Source: a virus
Reading direction: 5' to 3' (one strand)
DNA length: 25,162 bases
Virus record (IMG/VR): IMGVR_UViG_3300032322_001108
Span: 1-25,162 of that record
Both the position numbers and the translations under genes were made by a program. Shown in pieces: positions 642-15,118 of this stretch. Position 1 is the first letter of the stretch. Every line of letters starts with the position of its first letter. The notes under the pieces are model-generated. The model ran no database searches. It worked only from the letters and a program-made list of their open reading frames with translations, and had not been told where the DNA came from.

Positions 642-1202
642 ATGTTAAAAATACCTGAAATTATAAGTGAAGAAAAGTTTATTCCAGTAAAAGGATTTGA
701 GGGCTTGTATGAGGTTTCTAATCATGGCAGAATAAAAAGCCTGCTAAGAAAAAACAAATTTGGACACAATATATTGACCGGAAAGCGAGATAAAGATGGG
801 TATATTTCTGTTGTTTTAGTTAAAAATAAAAAACCATATTATTTAAGGGCGCATAGAATTGTTGCAGAAACATGGTTAGAAAACGAAAAATCATTAAAAG
901 TTGTACACCACATTAATAATATTAAAGATGATAATAGGATTTATAATCTTCAATGGTCTACAATATCAGATAACACAAAACATGCTTATTCTATTGGTGT
1001 AATAGTAAGCCCAAATAAGGGTAAAAAAGGAAAAGATAATAAAATATCACGAGAGTTTGATGTGTTAGATTTAAATGGTAATTTTATCTCAAGAGAAAAA
1101 GGAGTAATGGAATATGCGAGAAAGAATGGGTTTTCTTGTTCATTCAGAAAGGCTTTAAAAAAAGGGACTAAATATAGGAATAATATTTATCGCTATGTCT
1201 AA
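642..1202 (+). CDS. HNH homing endonuclease (NUMOD4-HNH-NUMOD1 type)
   Basis: A 186-residue free-standing homing endonuclease. Residues about 12-60 match the NUMOD4 DNA-binding module (VKGFEGLYEVSNHGRIKS). Residues about 68-116 are an HNH nuclease domain, with paired histidines at 89-90 (VVHHINN), the conserved asparagine in NRIYNLQWS near 102 and a following NTKHAYSIG. Residues about 138-186 look like a NUMOD1 module (DLNGNFIS, then KKGTKYRNNIYRYV). Such genes cut an allele lacking them and spread by repair copying. It sits between the two terminase genes, and its last 8 bases overlap the large-terminase ATG at 1195. Its codon use looks more AT-rich and lysine/asparagine-heavy than its neighbours, as expected for a mobile gene. 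Confidence 0.9.
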   Translation: MLKIPEIISEEKFIPVKGFEGLYEVSNHGRIKSLLRKNKFGHNILTGKRDKDGYISVVLVKNKKPYYLRAHRIVAETWLENEKSLKVVHHINNIKDDNRIYNLQWSTISDNTKHAYSIGVIVSPNKGKKGKDNKISREFDVLDLNGNFISREKGVMEYARKNGFSCSFRKALKKGTKYRNNIYRYV

Positions 1203-1287
1203 CAATATAATACGTGCTACCCCCAAGCAGGCCGAGGCTCACAAGTTACTTAGTGAGAATACAATCGTTCTGTACGGGGGTGCTTGA
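1195..1287 (+). CDS. Large terminase, N-terminal piece (frame interrupted)
   Basis: ATG 1195 opens a 30-residue frame ending at TGA 1285-1287. The peptide contains TPKQAEAHKLL followed by VLYGGA. This is what the first 30 residues of a large terminase look like: an adenine-recognising Q-motif followed by the first half of the Walker A loop. The second half of the loop (IRGAKSYW) continues in another frame from 1284. A one-base backward slip, a one-base insertion or a two-base deletion would join the two. Compared with the GGA-IRG(G/A/S)KS form I recall from related terminases, five bases (TGACA, 1285-1289) look extra. The start overlaps the HNH gene by 8 bases. It is either a natural frameshift, a broken gene or a sequencing error. 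Confidence 0.7.
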   Translation: MSNNIIRATPKQAEAHKLLSENTIVLYGGA

Positions 1288-2594
1288 CAATCAGGGGTGC
1301 AAAATCTTATTGGGGTTGCCTCGAAATCATTACACTTTGTTTTCAATACCCAAATAGCCGGTGGTTAATGCTTCGCCGTTCATGGGACGACCTTAACGTA
1401 AAACTGCTCGTAACATTTAAAGAAAACTTTTTAAACAAAGGTTTTGATAGGTACGTAAGAGAATACAACGGCCAAACCTCTACTCTTACATGGAATAACG
1501 GCAGCCAAATTGTGTTTATGTCAGAAAGTTACGATAGGGATAAGGATTTAAACCGTTTTCGTGGACTTGAGATTAACGGCGCATTTTGTGATGAAATGAA
1601 CGAGCTGCAAGAAATTACATTTGACAAAGTAATTGAGCGTTCCGGCTCTTGGTTCCATTCACCCGGCTGCCCAATTAAAATACTTGGAAGTTGTAACCCG
1701 ACAAACAACTGGGTTAAAAAAAGATTTTACGATCTATGGAAAAAGAACGCTTTGCCAAAGGGTATTGCATACGTTCAGGCATACATGACTGATAACCCGT
1801 ATATCCCTGCGGCATATCTTGAAAGCGTTAAACTATTACCAAGGTACCAATACGAGGTGTTCGTACTCGGTAACTGGGATATTCAGATTAAAACAGGTGG
1901 TGAGTTTTACAAAGAATTTGAACTTGACAGAAACGTAAGAAATAATTTTTACAATCCGGATTTAGCGTTACATATTTCATTCGACGAAAACGTCAACCCT
2001 TATTTGCCTTGTGGCATATTTCAAGTAATAAACGAGGAAATTAGAATGATTGATGAGATAGCGGCCGTTTCACCGAATAATGATTTAAAATATGTTTGCC
2101 GGGAAATAGTAAACAGATACCGCAATCACAAATCGGGTGTTTTTATCTATGGCGATGCAACCAGTAGAAAACAGGACGTAAAACTTGAGAAAGGCCATAA
2201 TTTATTCACTTTAATTGAAAATTACTTATCGGTATTTAATCCAATTCTTAGAGTTCCCCAAAGTAACCCGTCGGTAGTTATGCGTGGCCAGTTTATGAAT
2301 TACTTACTTTGTGGAAAAATTGAAGGGGCTTCGCTTTACATAGGTGATAACTGCCAACATACAATAAACGACTTTATAAACACAAAAGAGGGTGCAAGCG
2401 GTGATAAACATAAGGAAGTTCAAACAAACCCAACAACAAAAGCACGTGAACAAATAACCGGCCACTTTACCGATTTAACAGATTATGCAGTTTGTGAGAT
2501 ATTGAAAGAAAAATATATTAAATTTGTATCAGGCGACACAATACCAGTTTTCCACTACGGTAAAGGAGCAATTAACACACGAGTAAAATATTAA
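1284..2594 (+). CDS. terL: Terminase large subunit (main body, frame-interrupted at Walker A)
   Basis: The packaging motor ATPase and headful or site-specific nuclease. The 436-residue frame begins at TTG 1284 with the end of Walker A (RGAKSYWG; Lys7, Ser8). Walker B is INGAFCDEMNE, with Asp103 and Glu104. The coupling motif is ILGSCNPTN at about 133-141. The RNase H-like nuclease follows, with Asp234 in SFDENVNPY and Asp291 in IYGDATSRKQD. The missing N-terminal 30 residues lie in another frame at 1195-1287. No ATG precedes Walker A in this frame: stops lie at about 1251-1256, and the first internal ATG (residue 29) would lose the loop. Function therefore requires a frameshift, a corrected sequence or complementation. 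TTG overlapping the previous TGA also allows reinitiation, but that would split the P-loop between two chains. Confidence 0.9.
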   Translation: MTIRGAKSYWGCLEIITLCFQYPNSRWLMLRRSWDDLNVKLLVTFKENFLNKGFDRYVREYNGQTSTLTWNNGSQIVFMSESYDRDKDLNRFRGLEINGAFCDEMNELQEITFDKVIERSGSWFHSPGCPIKILGSCNPTNNWVKKRFYDLWKKNALPKGIAYVQAYMTDNPYIPAAYLESVKLLPRYQYEVFVLGNWDIQIKTGGEFYKEFELDRNVRNNFYNPDLALHISFDENVNPYLPCGIFQVINEEIRMIDEIAAVSPNNDLKYVCREIVNRYRNHKSGVFIYGDATSRKQDVKLEKGHNLFTLIENYLSVFNPILRVPQSNPSVVMRGQFMNYLLCGKIEGASLYIGDNCQHTINDFINTKEGASGDKHKEVQTNPTTKAREQITGHFTDLTDYAVCEILKEKYIKFVSGDTIPVFHYGKGAINTRVKY

Positions 2595-14600: not shown

Positions 14601-14930
14601 ATGAAAGACAATGAAAGTTTAAAAATCGAACTTGAACAATTAAAGAAAATCCACGGCAAAGTGATAACTTTAGAAGTTCCACTTGACGAGGACGACGAAA
14701 CAAAAAAAGCAGTTCTTTATTTAAAAAAACCTGATATGTCAACTCGTAGCATGGTTGCGAAGTTGGTTCAAAACGACTCATACAAGGCAATTGTAGCCTG
14801 TTTGAAGAAGTTGAGAATAGGGGGGGACGAATTGGAGCTTGTTTTAAAAAATGATGATGCAGTTGCAAGTTGCGAAAGTGCAATTGTTGAATTGTTGACT
14901 GTTCAACAAGCGACAATAAAAAAAAATTAG
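14601..14930 (+). CDS. Tail assembly chaperone, short form (gpG-like)
   Basis: A 109-residue acidic protein between tail tube and tape measure, where tailed phages encode the chaperone pair that coats the tape measure during tail building. Helix-rich N-terminus (LKIELEQLKKIHG), a strand pair (KVITLEVPLDEDDE, KAVLYLKKPD), and a helical C-terminus (SCESAIVELLTVQQATIKKN). The frame ends at TAG 14928-14930 just after nine A residues, where a -1 shift opens a longer product. The size and arrangement match lambda G despite no obvious sequence identity. Confidence 0.85.
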   Translation: MKDNESLKIELEQLKKIHGKVITLEVPLDEDDETKKAVLYLKKPDMSTRSMVAKLVQNDSYKAIVACLKKLRIGGDELELVLKNDDAVASCESAIVELLTVQQATIKKN

Positions 14931-15118
14931 AGAAATATCACAAGTTATTAAAGGAGGACGAGGTTGCAAAAAACAATGCTCTCCTCCTTTTTTATTATAA
15001 GGAAAACCCGAATAAGTGGAGCGATACGAAATGGTGTAAAAGGGTGGCGGAAATGATGTTTGTTTTAAAGTTTACAGGCCAAATAGTAGAAAAGCAGAAC
15101 AATAATAATGAGCAATAA
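14601..15118 (+). CDS. Tail assembly chaperone, long form by -1 frameshift (gpG-T-like)
   Basis: Nine A residues at 14918-14926 present the zero-frame codons AAA (14919-14921) and AAA (14922-14924) inside a perfect slippery heptamer A-AAA-AAA (14918-14924). A -1 slip there continues as AAA TTA GAG and so on to TAA 15116-15118. It adds 64 residues to 108, total about 172. The extension is clearly coding: LEKYHKLLKEDEVAKNN, LLLFYYKENPNKWSD, then KWCKRVAEMMFVLKF. It overlaps the tape measure ATG (15108). Lambda-type phages make the same pair in a set ratio. The extension has no good independent start, so the frameshift is the straightforward reading. Confidence 0.85.
14950..14993 (+). other. Terminator-like hairpin inside the frameshift extension
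   Basis: AAAGGAGGA (14950-14958) pairs with TCCTCCTTT (14982-14990), continued by GAG (14960-14962) with CTC (14979-14981) after one bulged C, then weak GTTG/CAAT pairing in the loop. The run TTTTTT (14988-14993) follows. It looks like an intrinsic terminator, yet lies in the coding sequence of the long chaperone. It begins 25 bases after the slippery heptamer and 19 bases after the zero-frame stop. It could stimulate frameshifting, though that is further than usual, or link translation of the long form to transcript read-through. Confidence 0.6.

Follow-up and report, generated by a model that had tools for sequence, protein, structure and literature searches.

A five-base coding gap in the Walker A loop of a phage large terminase gene: a probable ribosomal bypass element linked to an HNH homing endonuclease

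Introduction

The large terminase gene (terL) of the virus recorded in IMG/VR as IMGVR_UViG_3300032322_001108 is interrupted in the middle of its ATP-binding Walker A loop, next to a gene for an HNH homing endonuclease. This raises the question of how an essential phage gene can be broken at such a point and whether the neighboring endonuclease has a part in it. A preliminary description of this DNA had left the choice between a natural bypass, a recently defective phage, and an indel error, and had suspected a homing event or imprecise repair near the HNH gene as the cause. Here, we follow the interruption through the record itself (25,162 bases, positions 1 to 25,162, which as a whole we call the window) and through the other phages that share it.

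Results

The two halves of the Walker A loop lie in different frames

On the plus strand of the window, the terminase small subunit gene (TerS; 190–627, +; PHROG 309, E 3e-10) is followed by the HNH homing endonuclease gene (642–1202, +; Pfam NUMOD4, 7e-12, and HNH_3, 1e-7; PHROG 59 HNH endonuclease, 2e-34), which lies between terS and terL and, as the preliminary description had noted, overlaps the start of terL at ATG 1195 by 8 bases. The frame from this ATG encodes MSNNIIRATPKQAEAHKLLSENTIVLYGGA. This first coding part (1195–1284, +; 30 codons) comprises the Q-motif region and the first half of Walker A, is homologous to the N-termini of relatives L008–L018, and ends in ...VLYGGA before the stop codon TGA at 1285–1287. 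The terL frame resumes at ATC 1290 with IRGAKSYWGC... and stays open for 434 codons, to 2591. Together with its stop, this second coding part (1290–2594, +) holds the remainder of Walker A and the ATPase and nuclease domains, matches PHROG 2 and 979 (terminase large subunit; 4e-16 and 7e-16), and aligns to phage TerL by tblastn. Between the two parts lies the coding gap TGACA (1285–1289, +), which consists of the stop TGA plus CA. When it is removed, the halves unite as LYGGA-IRGAKSYWG, the sequence of the intact relatives L009–L011, so that both the coordinates of the split and its repair by this deletion are confirmed. The alanine before the Walker lysine (GAKS) is the normal residue in this TerL family (L008–L011 and L015) and does not count as a further defect.

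The genes downstream encode a Mu-type portal, a MuF protein, a protease, the capsid, a sheath-like protein, and a tape measure, and the record thus looks like an ordinary head-tail module. No second copy of terL was found among the ORFs of the window. The window contains no tRNA genes and hence no phage suppressor tRNA, and read-through of the UGA was rejected since it leads into the wrong frame. Two other features of the record are set down here as observations. The window TerL (1290–2594) looks chimeric, with an ATPase half similar to those of Flavobacterium phage 11b and Cellulophaga phi10:1 and a nuclease half similar to Winoviridae (FPSV, lotta) terminases; the terL of phage 11b is itself naturally free of a gap. 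In addition, a small ORF 5' of the tape measure gene (14601–15118) ends in an A-run (AATAAAAAAAATTAG) with an open frame beyond it to about 15118, which looks like an ordinary tail-assembly-chaperone frameshift.

The same loop is interrupted in 27 phage contigs

Searches of viral and genome contigs with the window TerL as a single sequence returned no relative, and an alignment-based search of viral contigs found close TerL relatives at 60–72% identity. Most of these have an intact loop (LYGGAIRGAKS, LYGGSIRGGKS, or VYGGAIRGGKS) without extra bases. Two of them, L013 and L018, carry five extra bases at the exact point of the window gap, with TGACT in place of TGACA, and a third, more distant case (L094) has TGACT at the same point of the loop. 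The window is therefore not alone in deviating from an intact junction. When the flanking loop was fixed and all five inserted bases were left free in a scan, the only inserts found among real terL genes started with TGAC; the matches L089, L090, L091, L093, and L095 were not terL and were set aside.

With 23 further contigs besides the window, L013, L018, and L094, we count 27 distinct IMG/VR contigs that are interrupted at the same Walker A loop, and the gapped proteins that were checked are true TerL of several families (Terminase_3, Terminase_6N; Pfam/PHROG). In these carriers, two coding parts of one protein are separated by a gap that breaks the frame or holds a stop. Seventeen gaps are 5 nt long and take the form TGACN (window, L013, L018, L094, L098, L100, L105, and L373), TAGCN (L372 and L374–L379), TAGTT (L283), or TAAGT (L216). 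One gap is 8 nt long (TGAAAGGT; L275), and nine are 40–43 nt long (L020, L076, L086, L135, L148, L151, L169, L195, and L213). The stop directly follows the last codon before the gap in all 5- and 8-nt gaps, including that of the window, and falls within two codons of it in the 40–43-nt gaps. The loci of two terL family scans contained 146 intact loops.

A scan for the pattern GGAA-gap-GGGKS, with the two bases after TRR left free, gave nine matches, all of them true terL. A scan of genome contigs for the TGACN form gave 23 matches with a single true terL (L130, the same phage as L098); the other matches fell in unrelated sequence and show the chance background of that search. Eight of the 15 matches of a viral scan (L097, L099, L101–L104, L106, and L107) were likewise not terL and were discarded. 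We looked for a cultured isolate with a gap of the 5-nt or hairpin form and found none. Hairpin-type sites were likewise absent from 395 genomes of the phylum to which a Hymenobacter belongs, and 16 genomes from the order of L130 had no 5-nt GCN-gap-GGN site. One carrier (L376:1–1082) has a TAGCT gap in terL and, four codons on, an apparent intein that carries a LAGLIDADG endonuclease and sits at the Walker lysine, so that two different homing elements would share one terL loop.

TerL is under purifying selection past the gap

For the part of TerL past the gap, omega was 0.02–0.08 in the seven pairs with measurable dS. Between L013 and L018, dS was 0.73 and dN was 0.016, and a dead gene would not evolve in this way. 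Purifying selection on this part is strong, in line with the earlier impression that the rest of the protein is under selection.

Gap-end codons resemble the codons in front of the gaps

Across the carriers, the last codon of the gap resembles the codon just before the gap, as expected if the tRNA in the P site hops and re-pairs. The codon before the gap, which we propose as the take-off codon, is GCN in 16 of the 17 five-nt gaps (CGA in L216); in the window it is GCT, for alanine, at 1282–1284 (+). The TAGCN class reads GCN-UA-GCN, so that alanine is specified both directly ahead of the stop and at the end of the gap. Over longer distances, the pairs are GGC/GGT across 8 nt in L275, GGT/GGT across 43 nt in L020, GCT/GCT across 40 nt in L151, and GCT/GCA in L076, L135, L148, L169, and L213. 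Positions 1 and 2 both match in 15 of the 27 contigs, and the match is partial, at one of these two positions, in the window, the other TGACN carriers, L283, L216, L086, and L195.

The position of the match was also specific. At +5, 16 of the 17 five-nt gaps have a codon with the same second base as the take-off codon, compared to none (0/17) at −1 and +2. Fourteen of the five-nt gaps came from searches in which that base was left free, and 13 of them match at position 2 (p 1.6e-7); among the nine from the GGAA-gap-GGGKS scan, seven read GCN-TA-GCN and eight have C at landing position 2 (p 1e-4). This re-pairing profile, together with the full GCN landing match in the TAGCN carriers, places the proposed landing codon of the window at ACA (1287–1289, +). 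Here, C matches at position 2, pairing with the Ala tRNA is possible at position 3, and position 1 is a mismatch; this two-of-three match is the weakest point of the bypass reading. The codon matches may partly reflect the original Ala codon of the loop. Even so, the sequence of the relatives is obtained only if one copy of the Ala codon stays untranslated.

The long gaps share a hairpin

All nine 40–43-nt gaps contain a conserved 10-bp hairpin, which begins one or two codons past the take-off codon, just after the stop. Within this hairpin, 97.8% of cells are paired, and five pairs have changed on both sides. A model of the hairpin was run against the window and against 75 terL-family loci other than the carriers, with no match, and among 80 HNH loci it matched known carriers only. 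The 5-nt gap of the window has no hairpin and no known stimulator. Two of the long gaps (L148 and L213) hold stops in both frames, which means that a one-base slip cannot join the two parts of these TerL proteins.

HNH genes are enriched directly in front of gapped terL

Using a profile built from the HNH proteins of five carriers, we found that an HNH gene ends 71–108 nt before the gap, just before terL, in the window, L013, L018, L374, L283, L216, L275, L076, L151, L169, and L213. Another HNH type lies just before terL in L100, and L373 and L376 have HNH genes farther upstream. Fifteen of the 27 carriers have no directly adjacent HNH gene, for which a cassette must be assumed to have lost it. 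Ten carriers had turned up incidentally in two terL scans, and in five of them the HNH gene is directly 5' of terL; among intact relatives for which 400 nt or more of upstream sequence was available, the count is 0 of 136 (p 5e-7). A comparison with close relatives had been suggested in the preliminary description; the loop is gapless in L009–L011, and one of the 136 intact relatives (L137) has an HNH match more than 800 nt from terL. A scan anchored on the HNH gene led to three further gapped terL genes (L213, L216, and L275) and also to L283.

The empty sites point the same way. In L008, L009, L011, L014, L015, and L017, TerS abuts terL and the P-loop is intact, and in intact relatives the TerS stop lies 49–82 nt before the P-loop. 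Since TerS runs straight into terL in these phages, the HNH gene of the window sits in an otherwise tight junction. In the pair L013 and L018, a block from −720 to the gap, which takes in the HNH gene, the start of terL, and the gap, is 90–100% identical, and its last 240 nt are identical. Upstream of the HNH gene, the short flanks of the two phages are unrelated, and beyond the gap their terL genes are 82–98% identical. This pattern, seen in one pair only, is what co-transfer of the HNH gene and the gap would leave. In L018 (5406–5900), the terL gap persists while the HNH gene is broken into two frames, which is what a homing gene in decay would be expected to show.

HNH genes of the same family were also found elsewhere. 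In L214, L215, and L217, one lies directly 5' of terL genes with an intact P-loop, which may reflect another target site or another form of protection. In L221 and L266, one lies directly 5' of helicase-like genes, also with intact P-loops, and other P-loop genes may be targets of these enzymes too.

Cultured Streptomyces phages have a gap in the same loop

Compared to the gapless phages phiScoe10 and phiScoe3, the terL of Streptomyces phage phiHau3 has a 10-nt gap (TTACTCCGGT) in its Walker A loop, between KGWG and KDP, with the matched Gly codons GGC/GGT. The cultured Streptomyces phages GreenWeasel and BroPlease have the same 10-nt gap. As all three are cultured isolates, a gap in this loop does not appear to preclude a functional packaging motor. 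A second 10-nt gap, with matched CGG/CGG codons, lies near Walker B in phiHau3 (L382:2905–2945) and GreenWeasel (L383) and is absent from BroPlease (L384). According to a 2013 study, as cited in a review (PMC5009743), the phiHau3 terminase is a possible case of bypass, interpreted there as control through UUA. The phiHau3 gap resembles the present ones in its gene, in its place in the Walker A loop, and in its matched codons. On the other hand, it is 10 nt long, the take-off codon is followed by the sense codon UUA instead of a stop, and its model, as cited there, is one without an adjacent homing endonuclease.

Discussion

With a probability of roughly two in three, we consider the window gap to be bypassed by ribosomes and the gap and HNH gene to form, or descend from, a homing cassette. 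From the sequences, we infer the hop, the cutting of terL by the HNH enzyme, and the protection conferred by the gap. On a ribosome that holds GCU (Ala) in its P site and UGA in its A site, the peptidyl-tRNA would detach, the mRNA would advance by five bases, and the tRNA would re-pair at ACA, the last three bases of the gap, after which decoding would resume at AUC and yield the normal Walker A loop LYGGA-IRGAKS. At the DNA level, the HNH endonuclease would cut the conserved P-loop DNA of a gapless terL, and repair from the carrier would copy in both the HNH gene and the gap. The gap would destroy the target site and so protect the new copy from cutting, hopping would keep TerL intact, and the gap would cost little because it is, as we propose, translationally silent. 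The HNH gene could later decay, as in L018, or be lost (e.g., in L094, L086, L135, L195, L020, L105, and L098), and the gap would remain. The preliminary description was therefore right in kind to link the split to the HNH gene through homing; its other suggestion, imprecise repair, is disfavored by evidence that points to a recurring two-part cassette. More broadly, we lean towards the view that mobile homing-endonuclease cassettes have repeatedly targeted the terminase Walker A loop in unrelated phages and that ribosome hopping lets them evade purifying selection, with gaps of 5 to 43 nt that include natural 5-nt stop-hops (GCN-UA-GCN) working without a hairpin.

Bypassing could be real and the HNH gene a bystander, with the gaps persisting for other reasons such as packaging control or escape from another nuclease. 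This would sit well with the carriers, more than half of the total, that have no directly adjacent HNH gene, and with the link of a phiHau3-type gap to a UUA codon in the study cited in PMC5009743. It is nonetheless improbable given the strong HNH excess beside gapped terL, the block identity of HNH gene and gap in L013 and L018, and the retention of the gap in L018 where the HNH gene has decayed. A programmed −1 or +2 frameshift at GCY-UGAC, by which one or two gap codons (T or LT) would enter the P-loop, is also compatible with the window junction taken alone, as the second frame is open through the junction in all TGACN carriers. UGA-C is, moreover, a slow and leaky stop context. However, re-pairing of the Ala tRNA across the 17 gaps is almost nil at −1 and +2 and good at +5, the GxxxxGKS loop would gain one or two residues, which is the case in none of the intact relatives, and the stops in L148 and L213 preclude a one-base slip there. 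The preliminary description had pointed to a slip at the G5 run, and this idea does not hold up. The run is not conserved, with other carriers reading GGA GGT GCC, GGC GGT GCC, or GGT GGC GCC, and we found no slippery sequence that allows re-pairing one base back. We therefore regard a frameshift as doubtful, slightly more so than a bystander HNH gene.

If a splicing-like or editing activity excised the gap from the RNA, this would also explain why the P-loop is restored exactly and why the long gaps hold hairpins, but 5–43 nt is far below the size of known self-splicing introns, no partner enzyme was seen, and matched flanking codons are expected of a tRNA hop and not of RNA excision in general, which leaves this reading very unlikely. 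Scarcely better placed, and if anything a little less so than RNA removal, is the production of TerL as two polypeptides, with the second restarting at a UUG or CUG that overlaps the UGA. A TTG or CTG does overlap TGA in every TGACN carrier, yet the TAGCN, TAGTT, and TAAGT carriers have no start codon at that point, and most long gaps have none beside the junction. The ATP-binding loop would, in addition, be cut in two. The TAG carriers (L372, L374–L379, and L283) and L216 lack a start codon upstream of the Walker lysine, so that a re-initiated protein would be missing the loop. Taken together with the stops in L148 and L213, this means that a one-base slip fails in some carriers and re-initiation in others, while bypassing would be one mechanism that covers them all. 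The broken frame itself, and the fact that the record is an IMG/VR contig, could speak for a defective phage or an assembly or sequencing error. This is the least credible reading, as the gap is common to diverged phages from different samples with dN/dS of about 0.02–0.08 past the gap, and as the cultured phiHau3, GreenWeasel, and BroPlease also carry a P-loop gap. The split is not an error, and of the three options first considered, the recently defective phage and the indel error fall away, while the shared gap, the codon re-pairing at +5, and purifying selection support a natural bypass. Shared inserts that recur in unrelated phages, often beside a gene for a DNA-cutting enzyme, are probably part of a mobile element and crossed by a ribosome hop.

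Such an arrangement has a counterpart in phage T4, where, in work by Bonocora et al. in 2011, the homing endonuclease MobA and the gene 60 bypass gap are reported to travel together as a mobile DNA cassette. As there, the present gaps are non-coding, have a stop beside the take-off codon and matched take-off and landing codons, lie just downstream of a homing endonuclease gene in many carriers, and presumably protect against cutting. The hairpin at the start of the gene 60 gap has its like in the 40–43-nt carriers and is absent from the 5-nt gap of the window. On the other hand, the T4 target is a topoisomerase and the present one a terminase P-loop, most of the present gaps are only 5 nt long and lack a hairpin, compared to 50 nt in gene 60 (PMC5009743), the endonuclease gene stands in front of terL instead of splitting it, and the gaps recur in unrelated TerL families, where bypass and cutting are putative. 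Matched codons flanking a stop are also known from artificial stop-hops, which span 9 nt for one residue and stay in frame (PMC5009743). The GCN-UA-GCN sites are nearly that arrangement, and differ in that they would be natural, take 8 nt for one residue, and change the frame. The byps of Magnusiomyces capitatus mitochondria are many short bypassed inserts in which imperfect codon matches are tolerated (PMC5009743). They share the shortness, the number, and the imperfect matches of the present inserts, and unlike these they are mitochondrial, occur under relaxed decoding, and are spread over many genes instead of one loop of one phage gene.

In the open-access literature searched, the possible bypass in the phiHau3 terminase was the only related mention that we found, and the Walker A comparison of phiHau3, the HNH link, and the 5-nt form did not appear there. 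The carriers thus appear to extend bypass elements linked to homing endonucleases to the terminase P-loop and to gaps as short as 5 nt. Few natural cases of bypassing are known, as the review remarks (PMC5009743), and efficient bypass in a bacterial system has so far rested essentially on the single gene T4 gene 60, in addition to yeast mitochondria and the suspected Streptomyces phage case. The 27 contigs add natural candidates from a single essential phage gene; their gaps follow several designs, and gapless genes serve as natural controls. They make it possible to test the requirements of a ribosomal hop, whether stimulators are necessary when only 5 nt are crossed, and whether homing endonucleases drive bypass gaps. 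Terminase genes that appear "frameshifted" in phage genomes may be real. If our reading is true, bypassing would be a way in which homing elements survive in general, and T4 would be no isolated curiosity.
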